DNA of 64,000 bases from positions 124,001 to 188,000 of the forward strand of contig JAFYEA010000018.1 in assembly GCA_017544525.1 (NCBI GenBank), given 5' to 3'. Both the position numbers and the translations under genes were made by a program. The first letter of the stretch is position 1, and each line of letters starts with the position of its first letter. Shown piece after piece: positions 10,393-18,113 of this stretch. The notes below the pieces were generated by a model. The model saw nothing but the letters and a program-made list of their open reading frames with translations. It searched no databases and was not told the DNA's origin. The DNA comes from Bacilli bacterium (GTDB taxonomy: Bacteria; Bacillota_I; Bacilli_A; RF39; UBA660).

Positions 10393-10444
10393 ATTATTTG
10401 ATTAATTAATTAAATTAAAGTATAATTTATGTTAGGTGATTTAT

Positions 10445-10873
10445 ATGAGTAAAACTAAAATTTTTAAGATAGAAAAAGAAGAATATAATAAAAAAGATAA
10501 TAAAAATGATTTATTAAGTATGGCTATTGGTATAGCAATATATGCATTTATTTTAATCATTAGTTCAAATTTATTTACTAATTTTTATATTGATAATTAT
10601 TTTTGGGCAATAATTGCTGCTGTTTTAATAAGTGCATTAAACTATACTATTAAACCTTTCTTAGTATTTTTAACTTTACCGCTTACTATTATTACTTTTG
10701 GTATTGCGTATCCTTTAGTAAATATGATTATATTAAAAATATGTGATTTATTAATGGGTGATAAGTTTGTTATTTCTGGTTTTTTCTCATTATTCTTTAT
10801 TGCAATATTTATAAGCATATTAAAGATTATATTAGATAAATTCATTACTAAAAACTTTAAAGGAAGTGATTAA
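10445..10873 (+). CDS. Phage-holin-4-superfamily membrane protein (YvlD-like)
   Basis: A 142-residue integral membrane protein with four hydrophobic segments after a charged N-terminal tail of about 25 residues. The segment ALNYTIKPFLVFLTLPLTII followed by FGIAYPLVNMIIL matches my memory of the YvlD family (PF04020, misleadingly called phage holin 4), which occurs in bacterial chromosomes without phages. ATG 10445 follows TTAGGTGATTTAT; an earlier GTG lies inside the ribosome site. lgt begins one base after its stop codon, and yvlD homologues also lie beside lgt in Bacillus, which supports the call. The molecular role is not known to me. Confidence 0.78.
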   Translation: MSKTKIFKIEKEEYNKKDNKNDLLSMAIGIAIYAFILIISSNLFTNFYIDNYFWAIIAAVLISALNYTIKPFLVFLTLPLTIITFGIAYPLVNMIILKICDLLMGDKFVISGFFSLFFIAIFISILKIILDKFITKNFKGSD

Positions 10874-11708: not shown

Positions 11709-11757
11709 TTGCTTTTTTTTATGATAAAATGATACCTAGTAGGATAGGAGTAAAAAA

Positions 11758-14700
11758 ATGAATAATCTATTAGCATTCACTGAAAAACCGAGTAAGAATT
11801 TAATTATAAAATTTATTAATAATATTTCATCTTTAAGGAGAGATTATAAGATTTTTGGTATGATTAGAACAAACAATTATAATGATTCAGATGCAAATGT
11901 TGAACTATTATTTAATATAATGATTGCTTTGTTTGAATCTGGAATGTCAATTGAACAAGTAATTGAAAAAACATGTTATTTTGCTAGTAGATGTTATTTT
12001 GAACCCAATAGTATTGATGTATATGAATTAAAAGATTTATTTAATGGTAGAAGTAAAGATGAAATATTTACATTTTTAGTTGTTTTAAAAAAATATAGTG
12101 ATAATAATGTATTTGATTTTGATGAATTATTTTCTGTATTTAATGATTTTTTTGTAGATAATACTACCAAACTTGACTTTTTGCTTTTTCTATCTAATCA
12201 TTATCATATATATATCGATACTAATAATCCATGTAGATTTGTTATTGATCTATTAAAAGAAGAAAACCCTAACATTTTAAAATATAAAGATGTTTTTGAT
12301 AGTTTACATGTCGATCATAATAGAAATTTTATTTATGATTTAGTTCATACTTGTAGTGATGTTGAAAAATACAATTTTATTAATAATGCATCAAAAATGA
12401 ATTGTTTTTATTTTCCTACTGGTATAAACGCTTTATTAAGTTCAATGAATGACCATACATTATTATATAAATCACTAATTTCTATATATGATGGGGAATC
12501 TCCTTATTCATTTTATTCTTATGACCTTCCATCTTTTCTTTTAAAAAATATACCAAAAAAAGAGAATGAATTAGGTCCATTTATAGAATTATTAGATTTT
12601 ATACGTAGTAAAGGAAATGATATATCTATTCCGCTTATGACTCGATTGATTAATAACTTTAATGATTCTCCATTATCTAATGAAGTCTTTAAGTATGTTT
12701 TAAATTTTTTAAAAACTAGTAAATTTGATTCACTAAATCATAATACCTTTTCAGATTTATACTTTGTTATATTACTAAATACTAAAACTTTAAAAGAAAG
12801 AGTTATCTATTCATATGATATGGTTGAAGTATTAAACAATTGTAATCATGATGATAAATATAAATCAGATGAAAAAAACTACGTATTTTCTTGCACTTTT
12901 TTCGAAGATTTGGGTTCAACTTTTACATGTACAGATGAAGAATTTATTGAATCATTAGAAATAATAGCTAACTCAAACGAATTAGAATCAGAAGTTTTTT
13001 ATAGAGATTTGTTTTCTAATTGTCCTATTGATTTTCATAAAAATAGTACTTATAGAAGCGAAAGATTAGATAAAATACTATATAAAATTGCACATAAATA
13101 CTTGGAAGTTTTAAGATTAACGTATAAAGATATGGATTATTTTCATTCCACATCATATAATAATTATGATCATACTAAAGGAATTGATGGTGTTATTGAA
13201 AAGTTTGTTTATATGTTTTCTGATCCAAAATATAACGATATGATATATGAAGAATATTCTGCATTACTTGATTCCTTTAATGCTTATGATGATGGTGATT
13301 TAAATCTCATTAAAAACAATGCATTATTTGCTCTTAAATCTAGGCTTATTATTAATAATGAAGATGATTTAAATCAAATTTTAAATATAATTTCTTCTAC
13401 ATATAGTAGTTCTTATAATTTTACAGTTTTTCTTTCAAATATACTTGTCAATAATCCTAATTATTTAGATATAATATTTAATTTTATCGTAGATAATAAT
13501 TATAATTCTTCTATTAATTTGATTGGTTTAGGTCAATATATTTCCAATCAATCTTCTTACGATTTCTTTGATAAGTATATGAGTAAAATATATGACTTAT
13601 TAAGTAAAAAAGAATATGATGACTATAAATTTAAATATAGTAAAGAAGAATTCTTACGTTGTTATATTTTAATGTTTAATAAGATTTTTAATAAAGAAGG
13701 TAATATAGATGTTTTTGCTGAATTTATCAATAAGTTTGATGATGAAAATTCTATATTTGATAAAGTAGACTTTAGTTATTTTTTAGATTCTTTGTTTGAA
13801 GGTTTTGAAATAGATAAACTTAAAATTGATAATTATAATATTCTTGAAAAATTAGCAAATTCTTATTATTCTTCAATTGTTTCTTATTCTAAAGGTTTAG
13901 ATGAATATGATGACTTTTATTCAGCTGAATATAGATCAATTAACAAGTATATATATTTAGAAAGATTTATAAACAGTTTAAGTAGTTTTGAAGATAAATA
14001 TAAGTTAACAAAAAGTATTGTTACTAAAATTAACGATTTTGCAACTTGTAATAATTTTGTTTTTAATAATAGTAGTAGTTCTTTCCATTACTATTTTGAC
14101 CTATCACAAAATATAGATAATATTATTTTTCAAATGAAAAAAGTGTTTGAAGATCCTGATATTGGTATATATTTTAAAAAAGATGATGTTTTTAATGATG
14201 TAGTTTATTCTCTTCATAATTTTTCGGATGCTAAGGATTTATTCTTTAAATTTATTAATACATTTAATATTACACCTGATTCTAACAAATATAATTATGC
14301 TGATATGGTTTTAAATGTTATAAGAATAACTGATATGCATGATATGGAGTTATTAGATTTTCTAAGAAAAACAAAACCTAACACTTCATATTTACCAATT
14401 TTTAAAAAAAGAATTATAAATAAAGAATTATTATTAGATTATGATTTAATGAAAGATTATTATAAATTAAGTGATTTTTATCATGGAACAATTGCTGAAT
14501 TATACATGAATTATTCAAGAAATACTATAACTGCTCGTTCTTCTTATCGTGAAGAAATGAGTAGAGCATATATTTATGGTAATGAGGAAAGAGATTATAT
14601 TAGTTCAGGAAGATTAAATGAATTATTAGACAAATATAAAAAAATTGGGATTGTTTCAGATACAGTTTTAAATGATTTATATGTAACATTATTACCTTCA

Positions 14701-17265
14701 ATGAAAAATCTTACTTATGAAGAATTCTTAAAAAGATTAATAGAAAACGTTGATACACATACTTTGTTTAGTAAAATGTATTATAATAGTGAACTTTTAT
14801 CAAAAATTAAAATTTTGCTTCCTAAAACAAGATTTAAAGAATTACCTCCTGCTGAAGTAATTGAAGATATGGACTTAGAATTTTGCAAAAAGTTTAATTT
14901 AGGTGTTTGGAGAAAATTATTAAATAATCCATTATTTGCTTGCAATATGGAAACTAAAAAAGCAATGATTAAAGTAATTAATTTTGCAGGATTATTTGAA
15001 AATGATTCAGAAGTAAAAACTAGAATTGATACTATTTTAGATTTATTTAGTGTTGACAGGATGATTTTTAGCTTAAATGATATTAGTATTTTAGATAATA
15101 CAAGTGGTTTGTTTGTTTCATATTTAGAAAACGGTTATGAAATAAAACCTGGTGTAAATATTCCAGAAAGTTTACAACCTTATTTACCAAGAACATTTGG
15201 TGAAGTAGAAAGAAAAAGATTATTAGATTTATATGGTAATGTTGGTTCAGACATTAATAAATTTATTTATCCTTATTCTAAGGAAGGTAATGTATGGACT
15301 CTTAAAAGGGGAGTTGACATTAGTAGATTTGTTCCTAGATTAAAAGAACAAATGACTAACGAAGAAATGCAAGCAATAATTAATAAAGAAGATCCATTGT
15401 CAGAAATTATGTGTTTTTTAAATCCTTATTCTGTAGTTCAATATAAAAGATATAAAGTTAAACCAGGTTTAAAAGATTACTCTAAGTTATCAAAGTTATT
15501 TACTTATGATAGTAGAACTCTTAGTTTAGAGTGCTTACTTAGATTATTTGAAAGAAACACAGGTTATTTAAAAGAAGTATTTGATTTCTTTGTTAAGTAT
15601 TATGATCAAATAATGTTAAGTAATGGAACACAATCAATTTTCCCAATAGTTATTAAAAAAGTAGAAAAGATTAAAAAGTTTTATATGGAGAGAGGTAATT
15701 CAAATCCTGATTATATTGATATGTATAATTATTGTATTTCCAATGGTTATAATCCTGATTTTGGAAATGAAGAATTTGCACAAGAAGCAAAAGTAAATGA
15801 GGTATCTAAAGAAGGTTTTGATTTTTATCAAGAGTTATTAAAGAAAACAAGAGCAAGAAAATTAAGTACTATTCCTAGACATGAAAAAGTATATGAAATT
15901 ACAGCAAAAAATGGTAAAAAGTTTAAAATATTAACTAAAACATTAAGAGGCGATGATCCTTTAAATCTTATTGTAGGTGAAAATAGATTTGCAGGTTGTT
16001 GTCAAAAATATGGTGGTCCTGGGGAAACTTGTATGGTTCATGCCGCTTCTAGTCAAAGTGGTGGAATATTTGTAACATACTTACTTGAAGGAGATGAAAA
16101 AATTCTTTTAACTCAATCTTGGACTTGGACTAATGAATCTAAGTTATGTTTTGATAATGTTGAAGCATCTGAGTATTTTAAAGATCATAGAAGAAGAGAT
16201 GTACTTACAGAAGTTGTTATGGAAGCTTTGCTTCTTGCTAGTAAAGATTTAGTAGAAACAAGTGATAGAGAAATTGATGAATATTGTTCTAAAGAAGCTG
16301 CTAAGATTAAAAAATCCAATTTATCTAATGAAGAAAAAGTTAAAATGTTGGATGAATTAGAAGAATTTAGAAAAAGACAAAAGTTAAGCATTGTAACAGT
16401 AGGAGAAGGTTGTGACGATTTAAGAGTTAAGGAAAGATTCCCACAAAAAGATTTAGATGAAACAACTGTTAGAGCGAAAGATTCTGATTTTGTAACTTAT
16501 AGTGATTCCAAATTAGGTCAGCAACATATTATCTATCAAACGGATGCTAAACGTATTCCTTCTTCTGATAAATTTAAAGATAGACCAATTTATAGAGATC
16601 CAAGACAAGTAAAAGTTGAAAGAGGAAGAGATATTAAATCATTTACATTAAAAAGAATTGCCGATATTGAAAAAATAGCTCATAAAGAAAACATGTTACA
16701 ATATTCTCGCGGGGAATCTTATTATGCCAGAACTCCTGAAGCATTAGCAAGCATCAATAATTGTGATGTTGATAATTTAAGAGTGGTTATTGGTGAAGAT
16801 TGGTATTATATATATGGCGTAGAAGATGATTTTATTGAAGTATATGATATGGCCAAGACTTCTTCTAGATTTGAAGATGAATCAATTTCCCAAACTATGG
16901 AATTATCATCAACATTTAATAATATATTAAAAGAATCAATTATTGTAGATTCTCAAGGAAAAGTTGCTGGTGTCAAAGAAATTAAAGCGGATTTAAGGGA
17001 AGATACATCTTATCTATTATTCTTAGCAGAAATTAGAAGAGGTGTAATTGAACAAGTTGGTGATGATTATGCATATGGTTATTCTAATTCGTCAAATAGA
17101 AGAGTTGTAAGTAAAGAAGAACAAAAAGATATATTATCAAGAGCTAAGGAAATAAAAAATGCTGGTAATGAAGATATGATAATGCATAGAGTTACATTTA
17201 AACCAACTATTAAAACAATTGAAAAAATGTATGGAAAAATAGATATAGAAGGGAGAAATATATAA
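11758..17265 (+). CDS. Giant protein of unknown function with a C-terminal CC-GG-C domain
   Basis: An intact 1835-residue frame, the longest gene in the window. There is no signal peptide and I see no long hydrophobic segment, so it is probably cytoplasmic. The first 1200 residues or so are Asn/Asp/Ser/Tyr-rich and look all-helical, as in large repeat scaffolds, with recurring short units such as LLDFLRK and FKYVLNFLK. Residues about 1370-1490 differ in character: a basic entry (KKTRARKLSTIPRHEK), a strand pair ending LRGDDPLNLIVGENRFAG, a cysteine cluster CCQKYGGPGETC, then FVTYLLEGDEKILLTQSWTW and CFDNVEASEY, a pattern like a small catalytic or ligand-binding domain with a faint GNAT-like flavour. 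The C-terminal 350 residues are charged and end in GRDIKSFTLKRIADIEKIA-type helices. The start follows TAGGAGTAAAAA. The next gene overlaps by one base, so the two products probably act together. Confidence 0.75.
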   Translation: MNNLLAFTEKPSKNLIIKFINNISSLRRDYKIFGMIRTNNYNDSDANVELLFNIMIALFESGMSIEQVIEKTCYFASRCYFEPNSIDVYELKDLFNGRSKDEIFTFLVVLKKYSDNNVFDFDELFSVFNDFFVDNTTKLDFLLFLSNHYHIYIDTNNPCRFVIDLLKEENPNILKYKDVFDSLHVDHNRNFIYDLVHTCSDVEKYNFINNASKMNCFYFPTGINALLSSMNDHTLLYKSLISIYDGESPYSFYSYDLPSFLLKNIPKKENELGPFIELLDFIRSKGNDISIPLMTRLINNFNDSPLSNEVFKYVLNFLKTSKFDSLNHNTFSDLYFVILLNTKTLKERVIYSYDMVEVLNNCNHDDKYKSDEKNYVFSCTFFEDLGSTFTCTDEEFIESLEIIANSNELESEVFYRDLFSNCPIDFHKNSTYRSERLDKILYKIAHKYLEVLRLTYKDMDYFHSTSYNNYDHTKGIDGVIEKFVYMFSDPKYNDMIYEEYSALLDSFNAYDDGDLNLIKNNALFALKSRLIINNEDDLNQILNIISSTYSSSYNFTVFLSNILVNNPNYLDIIFNFIVDNNYNSSINLIGLGQYISNQSSYDFFDKYMSKIYDLLSKKEYDDYKFKYSKEEFLRCYILMFNKIFNKEGNIDVFAEFINKFDDENSIFDKVDFSYFLDSLFEGFEIDKLKIDNYNILEKLANSYYSSIVSYSKGLDEYDDFYSAEYRSINKYIYLERFINSLSSFEDKYKLTKSIVTKINDFATCNNFVFNNSSSSFHYYFDLSQNIDNIIFQMKKVFEDPDIGIYFKKDDVFNDVVYSLHNFSDAKDLFFKFINTFNITPDSNKYNYADMVLNVIRITDMHDMELLDFLRKTKPNTSYLPIFKKRIINKELLLDYDLMKDYYKLSDFYHGTIAELYMNYSRNTITARSSYREEMSRAYIYGNEERDYISSGRLNELLDKYKKIGIVSDTVLNDLYVTLLPSMKNLTYEEFLKRLIENVDTHTLFSKMYYNSELLSKIKILLPKTRFKELPPAEVIEDMDLEFCKKFNLGVWRKLLNNPLFACNMETKKAMIKVINFAGLFENDSEVKTRIDTILDLFSVDRMIFSLNDISILDNTSGLFVSYLENGYEIKPGVNIPESLQPYLPRTFGEVERKRLLDLYGNVGSDINKFIYPYSKEGNVWTLKRGVDISRFVPRLKEQMTNEEMQAIINKEDPLSEIMCFLNPYSVVQYKRYKVKPGLKDYSKLSKLFTYDSRTLSLECLLRLFERNTGYLKEVFDFFVKYYDQIMLSNGTQSIFPIVIKKVEKIKKFYMERGNSNPDYIDMYNYCISNGYNPDFGNEEFAQEAKVNEVSKEGFDFYQELLKKTRARKLSTIPRHEKVYEITAKNGKKFKILTKTLRGDDPLNLIVGENRFAGCCQKYGGPGETCMVHAASSQSGGIFVTYLLEGDEKILLTQSWTWTNESKLCFDNVEASEYFKDHRRRDVLTEVVMEALLLASKDLVETSDREIDEYCSKEAAKIKKSNLSNEEKVKMLDELEEFRKRQKLSIVTVGEGCDDLRVKERFPQKDLDETTVRAKDSDFVTYSDSKLGQQHIIYQTDAKRIPSSDKFKDRPIYRDPRQVKVERGRDIKSFTLKRIADIEKIAHKENMLQYSRGESYYARTPEALASINNCDVDNLRVVIGEDWYYIYGVEDDFIEVYDMAKTSSRFEDESISQTMELSSTFNNILKESIIVDSQGKVAGVKEIKADLREDTSYLLFLAEIRRGVIEQVGDDYAYGYSNSSNRRVVSKEEQKDILSRAKEIKNAGNEDMIMHRVTFKPTIKTIEKMYGKIDIEGRNI

Positions 17266-18113
17266 TGTTAGAAGAAAAAATTAATAGTATGAAAGAAAAA
17301 AGATTAAAGGTTGATTCTTATGACGTTAAAGATGTTATGAGTGATATTGTTTCAAATATTAAAAATAATATTGATACACTTAAGAAAACTTTTAATCAAG
17401 AATATGAAGAAGAATTAGATGTTAATATGCTTTTTAATTCATTTGATTTAGTAGATTTTTATACTGAAATATATAAAAATGATTTTGGTTTAGTTACTAA
17501 TTCTTTTTCTCCATATGGTTTAATTGGATTAATTGTTGATAACGAGATTTCTATATACAATTTAGCTAATATATTAAGTCTTATTATTCAAAGTAGGAAT
17601 TCTATTATATTAGAATTAAAAAAATCAAAAAAATCTTTAATTCTATTGATTAGTATGATTAATAAAGTATTGAATGAAAAAAGAATTGTACCTATAGAAA
17701 CTAATAAATATTTATCTAATATGAACACTTATGATTTATTAATATTTATTGGTGATAAAGATAAATTTAATAGACTAAATAATACTTGTGAAAAAAAATA
17801 TTATGGTATAGGTAATTATGAATTAATTATTGATACTGAACTTGATAAAAAGTTGATTGAAACAGCCAAAAAGAAAAACGTATTAATTACTTATAAAACT
17901 AAAGATGATAGATTCTATACTAATTTTAGTAGAATAAGTAGTAATTATTGTGTTTCTTTAATGACTGATAGTAAAGAAGAAGCAAGAGTGTTTTTTAGAG
18001 ATATGAAAGCGAGTTTCCTACTAGTAAATATAATTCCTACTTTAGAAAAAAGAATTAATATTAGATTTGAAGATCTAATATATCAAAAATCTTGTATAGT
18101 TTATGAAGAATAG
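17265..18113 (+). CDS. Degenerate aldehyde-dehydrogenase-like protein
   Basis: A 282-residue protein whose start overlaps the last base of the giant gene (TAATG), implying coupled translation. Residues 84-130 read PYGLIGLIVDNEISIYNLAN, then SRNSIILELKKSKKS, which follows the nucleotide-fold pattern of aldehyde dehydrogenases, including ProA-type glutamate-semialdehyde dehydrogenases (P-x-GxI ... N ... gNa-x-ilk). The C-terminal EEARVFFRDMKASFLLVNI resembles the ALDH segment ending in a conserved Asn. I do not find the catalytic cysteine motif, and the protein is much shorter than a normal ALDH (400-500 residues). It may be a non-catalytic ALDH fold used for binding. The assignment rests on pattern memory only; a plain unknown is the alternative. 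Confidence 0.6.
   Translation: MLEEKINSMKEKRLKVDSYDVKDVMSDIVSNIKNNIDTLKKTFNQEYEEELDVNMLFNSFDLVDFYTEIYKNDFGLVTNSFSPYGLIGLIVDNEISIYNLANILSLIIQSRNSIILELKKSKKSLILLISMINKVLNEKRIVPIETNKYLSNMNTYDLLIFIGDKDKFNRLNNTCEKKYYGIGNYELIIDTELDKKLIETAKKKNVLITYKTKDDRFYTNFSRISSNYCVSLMTDSKEEARVFFRDMKASFLLVNIIPTLEKRINIRFEDLIYQKSCIVYEE

Follow-up and report, generated by a model that had tools for sequence, protein, structure and literature searches.

Giant conserved proteins are costly in the small genomes of gut bacteria, and they are mostly unexplained. To our knowledge, pseudoenzyme partners of the kind described below are little known in bacteria. GNAT domains have been reported in polyvalent and jumbo-phage proteins; the accessible parts of these reports mention no partner of this type (PMC5512222, PMC7824862). 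Here we analysed a stretch of 64,000 nucleotides from a Bacilli bacterium (the window; contig JAFYEA010000018.1, positions 124,001 to 188,000), which encodes a giant protein of 1835 amino acids and, directly downstream, a protein of 282 amino acids that by its sequence descends from gamma-glutamyl phosphate reductase (ProA). Giant and partner are a real, conserved pair, which we take as one two-protein module. The pair appears to be new as a system, built from known folds. In agreement with an earlier note made from the window's letters, no description of the pair was found in the libraries searched or in the open-licence PMC literature searched.

According to the window's list of open reading frames (ORFs), the giant is encoded by a single uninterrupted frame with an ATG start (11758-17265), and the partner by a second ORF, also with an ATG start (17265-18113); these and the parts of the two genes given below lie on the plus strand. 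The TAA stop of the giant and the ATG of the partner have one base in common (TAATG, 17263-17267), as the note had stated. A ribosome-site-like AAGGGAGA (17249-17256) is located within the 3' end of the giant gene, 8 bases upstream of the second ATG, and AGGAG at 11746-11750, 7 bases upstream of the giant's ATG, is a plausible ribosome site. The locus has a GC content of 21-26% in a low-GC genome of about 23%. With an estimated nine or so stops per 100 random codons, the giant's frame is not open by chance at this composition.

Neither protein matched Pfam or NCBIfam above cut-off, and sub-threshold matches of the giant, e.g. to NFACT-C and HAD-IB, were discarded as noise; no known family with an established role was found for it. 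A query with the whole giant recovered only the giant itself among 7,988 scored candidates. Therefore the query was changed to the tail of L001, a relative from the Clostridia. Of 7,989 candidates scored, 91 proteins had E<=0.001, the giant of the window included. Their lengths were 774-1874 amino acids in a search that admits about 750-2380. The C-terminal part, which includes the CCQ domain described below, was common to the relatives, while the N-terminal part was variable: long relatives mostly had no named domain there, many relatives carried BspA-type LRR_5 repeats, and two carried DUF4116, which the accessible part of one report models as an alpha-solenoid (PMC8078820). In one relative (P0067) a pyridoxal phosphate (PLP)-dependent decarboxylase of the ornithine/diaminopimelate (DAP)/arginine type is located N-terminal to the CCQ protein in the same frame. 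PHROGs yielded an unnamed family on the CCQ part of L011 (phrog_19262, E 2.8e-4), another on the partner of L001 (phrog_13417, E 8.4e-5), and no named family besides LRR-type matches.

The earlier note had held that the giant frame is under selection, and the giant is indeed a conserved protein. P0034 (1815 amino acids) is 47% identical to it across residues 685-1835 and has no match N-terminal of residue 685. The match of P0039 (1815 amino acids) begins at residue 737 with 40% identity, and that of P0002 runs from residue 1017 onward with 37% identity. Alignment with relatives of almost the same length starts no earlier than residue 685 or 737, so the first third of the giant evolves fast. 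Residues 1-684 (11758-13809) had no blastp match even in the relatives of 1815 amino acids, while the middle region, residues 685-1349 (13810-15804), is kept among long relatives by its identity to P0034 and P0002. The best match of the giant's N-terminal part among PDB sequences had an E-value of only 0.25, and the two structure predictions covered the tail; the helical scaffold that the note saw in most of the giant has thus gained no support.

The last 486 residues of the giant comprise two predicted domains, the CCQ domain at residues 1350-1612 (15805-16593) and a second domain at residues 1613-1826 (16594-17235; GEDWYYIY...LREDTSYLL). The second has a clear GNAT (acetyltransferase) fold in the prediction, and the predicted fold of the CCQ domain is tentatively GNAT-like. 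The note had proposed one distinct domain at residues 1370-1490; a domain does exist around CCQ, but the limits were wrong. The block CCQKYGGPGETC...QSWTW...CFDNVE, to which it had also drawn attention, is the most conserved part of the giant. In the core, G..CCQ..G..H..QSWxW..CxDNxE (residues 1407-1469; 15976-16164), G1407, C1415, Q1416, W1457, D1466 and E1469 were invariant with 105/105 letters in 106 aligned domains. At two loci beyond this set the Q of CCQ is replaced (L022, CCF; L071, CCM). We know of no GNAT with this CCQ/QSWxW/DNxE core. In CCQ domains of cyanophage and jumbo-phage proteins ExxGxG directly follows DNxE, at the position of the GNAT loop for coenzyme A (CoA), in 5/5 sequences, three of them independent; it was found in 0/91 bacterial CCQ proteins. 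From this contrast in one motif, a loss of CoA binding by the CCQ domain of the bacterial giants seems likely. An acyl-CoA loop of the form Q/RxxGxG/A, which GNATs have after beta-4, was absent from all 62 second domains in which the strand could be placed by pattern, out of 91. Membership of the CCQ domain in PcfJ, considered for a by-eye likeness of HCVGxY to CCQxY, found no support, with an hhalign probability of 0.6% against the one PcfJ sequence compared.

Single partner sequences matched ProA with E-values of 2e-4 (L001) and 5e-9 (L085). Against ProA structures, a profile of three sequences reached 2.9e-7 and a profile of 13 sequences (A9) 6.4e-26 to 1o20. Judged by these matches the partner is a descendant of ProA, a member of the aldehyde dehydrogenase (ALDH) superfamily, and the note's reading of a degenerate ALDH was correct. 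A block of 100 alignment columns around the catalytic cysteine holds 26-55 residues in 16/16 paired partners and 101-107 residues in 4/4 ProA. The cysteine column itself is empty in 15/16 paired partners and 7/7 others (22/23), while 4/4 ProA have the cysteine. The partner of G939 has a cysteine in this column, seemingly by chance, with only 42 residues in the block. The set of 16 loci includes P0034/P0098, whose pairing was deduced from contigs of equal length (10653) and not observed as a locus, G892 and G939, and excludes G753 and G764. None of the 16 paired partners, which are 14-52% identical to the partner in the window, has an internal stop, so the partner is no pseudogene but a pseudoenzyme built by deletion. 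The partner profile, searched against proteins, returned 22 of them: 13 of ProA size with an Aldedh domain, one fragment and eight of 282-295 amino acids, namely the window's own partner and others 24-53% identical to it.

Long-tailed giants, i.e. those with at least 200 residues after the CCQ core, split frames pooled, were found through the giant itself at 20 loci including the window. At 15 of these the partner adjoins the giant, on either side. It is located 3' in the window, G001, G009, G633, G099, G202, G717, G753, G770, G814 and G883, and 5' in G723, G758, G856 and, with one gene between, G764. In 14/15 loci the two genes overlap or are at most 60 bases apart. Thus the pair recurs in distantly related genomes; the note had proposed to look for it in related Bacilli. 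A complete absence of the second gene next to homologues, which would have refuted the note, was not observed. On the other hand, the fixed ratio of both products which the note had read from the one-base overlap is not established by it; because the partner precedes the giant in 4/15 loci, stop/start coupling is not universal. Two long-tailed giants (G874, G407) have no partner, and two loci (G761, G783) are cut upstream by contig ends. In G821 the giant is cut, and a second contig ends with a partner gene and then the first part of an LRR protein, which matches the cut end of the giant; the pairing is therefore implied but not seen. The count leaves out G892, where a pair is present but was found through the partner, and G725, a tail relative that has no CCQ match and, within the 3.3 kb available, no partner-like gene.

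The partner follows the long tail. Short-tailed CCQ frames, which end about 100 residues or less after the domain, had no partner gene at L009-L012 and L023. Among the 28 matched genomes of the G001 family, two are long-tailed, 23 short-tailed, two contig-cut (G951, G1005) and one without a CCQ match (G935). A partner-like gene (E<1e-10) was present in both long-tailed genomes (G001, G633) and in 1/23 short-tailed ones (G939). In the G202 family partner-like genes occurred in 9/13 CCQ-positive versus 30/182 other genomes (Fisher p 9e-5); these 39 genomes were hand-picked, with E-values of 3e-126 to 1.5e-10 and frames shorter than real ProA. Over the 16 loci the divergence of the CCQ domain was correlated with that of the partner (r 0.94, Spearman 0.74, 0/5000 permutations), to which shared descent contributes.

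Some findings weigh against an exclusive pair. Partner-like genes also adjoin large proteins with no CCQ match (L139-L144) and are found beside unrelated genes (L145, L146). As they occur beside non-CCQ proteins or alone, the pair is not exclusive, and large proteins may more generally have a pseudo-ProA as their partner. Three such large proteins of 749-957 amino acids (L139, 1798-7457; L141, 4020-6533; L142, 2309-4558) adjoin a pseudo-ProA and have C-termini alike by eye; they had neither a CCQ nor a Pfam match.

Further observations concern the surroundings of the pair. In G202 (L021/L096) giant and partner are located directly before rpsO-pnp, genes named by eye, where G771 (L119) of the same family has proB-proA. 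There the proBA site may be where the pair originated, or a place to which it was transferred. At several loci a third small gene for 103-160 amino acids, alike by eye, adjoins the giant or the partner (L020, 4493-4927; L083, 7668-8126; L085, 243-554; L088, 4877-5338; L149, 7047-7529); two copies tested had no Pfam match. A gene downstream of the partner in L020 (10220-12148) had the look of an ADP-ribosyltransferase by eye only and was dropped, as Pfam gave no match.

What the analysis shows are the sequences, the predicted domains and their conservation, the adjacency of the genes and the correlation of their divergence. Beyond this, we tentatively favor the view that giant and partner form a complex, with the partner as a ligand-binding, allosteric or regulatory subunit. 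The complex, assumed to be cytosolic, would be held together by the giant's C-terminal tail, because the partner accompanies long-tailed giants and not CCQ-only proteins. The variable N-terminal arm, often repeat-rich in relatives, would pick the target. The partner, a former ProA with the rest of the ALDH core kept, would serve as the ligand-binding or allosteric subunit. In the CCQ domain C1415-Q1416, Q1453/W1455/W1457 and D1466-N1467-E1469 constitute a putative site, which would either handle acyl or aminoacyl groups despite lacking the customary CoA loop or bind a ligand that switches the complex. Thus two folds stripped of their usual catalytic parts would sense or modify a target. A more far-reaching version is possible yet doubtful: a new two-component machine from two retired enzymes, a CoA-less pair of GNAT-type domains and a ProA without its catalytic block, equipped with an exchangeable target-reading arm. 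In gut Bacillota it would regulate or modify, and phages would keep the CoA-loop form of the CCQ domain.

The giant could instead be an active enzyme, with one GNAT-like domain still able to acylate a cellular protein from acyl-CoA or acyl carrier protein (ACP) and with the partner as its inhibitor or its guide to the target. Acyl transfer to cellular proteins is the role thought for polyvalent phage proteins. Yet neither ExxGxG in the 91 bacterial CCQ proteins nor Q/RxxGxG/A in the 62 placed second domains was found, and we consider an active acyltransferase unlikely.

Relatives of the CCQ domain in phages bear on the next alternative. With the tail as tblastn query, two Microcystis phages, MaMV-DC and MaMV-DH01, were hit in a total of three records among 50,697 phage records, with 36% identity over query residues 67-156, i.e. 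the CCQ part only; the relative in MaMV-DC is an unnamed protein of 697 amino acids. In IMG/VR a query with A7 found a relative at three loci, whose contigs measure 129-379 kb; two of the loci are alike (L027, L028). One of these loci adjoins a PcfJ gene and one is about 3.4 kb from an ART-PolyVal gene. On the 379-kb phage contig (L029, 6402-9892) the gene of the CCQ protein is arranged tail to tail with the PcfJ gene. The window tail and A8 had no relative on IMG/VR viral contigs, and the idea that the window locus came from a phage or prophage was discarded on that account.

Phage relatives, the fast-evolving N-terminus, mosaic N-terminal repeats and a patchy spread over 4/391 genomes of the class and 28/197 of the G001 family, G001 being counted in both, would suit a conflict system. 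This could be a defence directed at phages or plasmids, or a pair of the toxin-antitoxin type in which the pseudo-ProA is the antidote. The genomic setting speaks against it. Upstream of the giant are polA, a gene whose product has a pilin-type motif at its N-terminus, a holin-like gene and lgt; downstream of the pair are a SpoU-type methylase, a sigma factor, ruvA and ruvB. The window locus is an ordinary chromosomal stretch with housekeeping neighbours. These neighbours, the lack of any plasmid match in tblastn with the tail and a phage match confined to the CCQ part do not place the giant on a phage, plasmid or conjugative element. Furthermore, no PADLOC family matched at E<=1 with six proteins searched, and partner-like genes also occur alone. 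Thus a conflict system appears improbable. The holin-like (Phage_holin_4_2) gene (10436-10873) encodes a membrane protein, overlaps lgt and lies two genes upstream of the giant.

Just as improbable is a non-catalytic scaffold, i.e. a giant structural or assembly protein with the partner as chaperone or anchoring subunit and no bond chemistry. The great length, the LRR_5 and DUF4116 repeats of relatives and the loss of usual catalytic parts from both proteins fit such a scaffold; the polar core (C, Q, D, N, E) kept across phages and bacteria resembles a functional site, beyond what packing asks for. That the second gene is a decaying proA next to the giant by accident, as the lost catalytic block and the proBA position of the G202 pair might suggest, is largely refuted and hardly credible in view of stop-free frames in all 16 diverged partners, adjacency on both sides of the giant and no proB seen beside the partner.

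Taken together, an anonymous gene of 5.5 kb has gained an anatomy, a recurrent ProA-pseudoenzyme partner and phage relatives with a CoA-type loop. Testable questions follow: whether giant and partner bind each other, what occupies the CCQ site, and what ligand a ProA without an active site binds. With the GNAT superfamily (RimI, LasI, PatZ, EryM) the giant shares the predicted fold of residues 1613-1826, but its domains are devoid of the acetyl-CoA loop motif and are part of a giant protein. The partner shares sequence ancestry with ProA, as seen in the match to 1o20, but the catalytic-cysteine block is deleted and it is not beside proB in the pairs seen. Some relatives carry repeats before the CCQ domain like BspA-type LRR/DUF4116 proteins of gut Bacillota; the giant of the window has neither repeat by Pfam, and the family is not defined by them. 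The polyvalent proteins that phages and conjugative elements carry are, in the accessible part of their description, likewise large and mosaic with GNAT domains (PMC5512222), and jumbo-phage proteins encoded near ART-PolyVal and PcfJ genes contain the CCQ domain itself. The giant of the window differs from them in being chromosomal, among housekeeping genes, and in having a pseudoenzyme as its partner.
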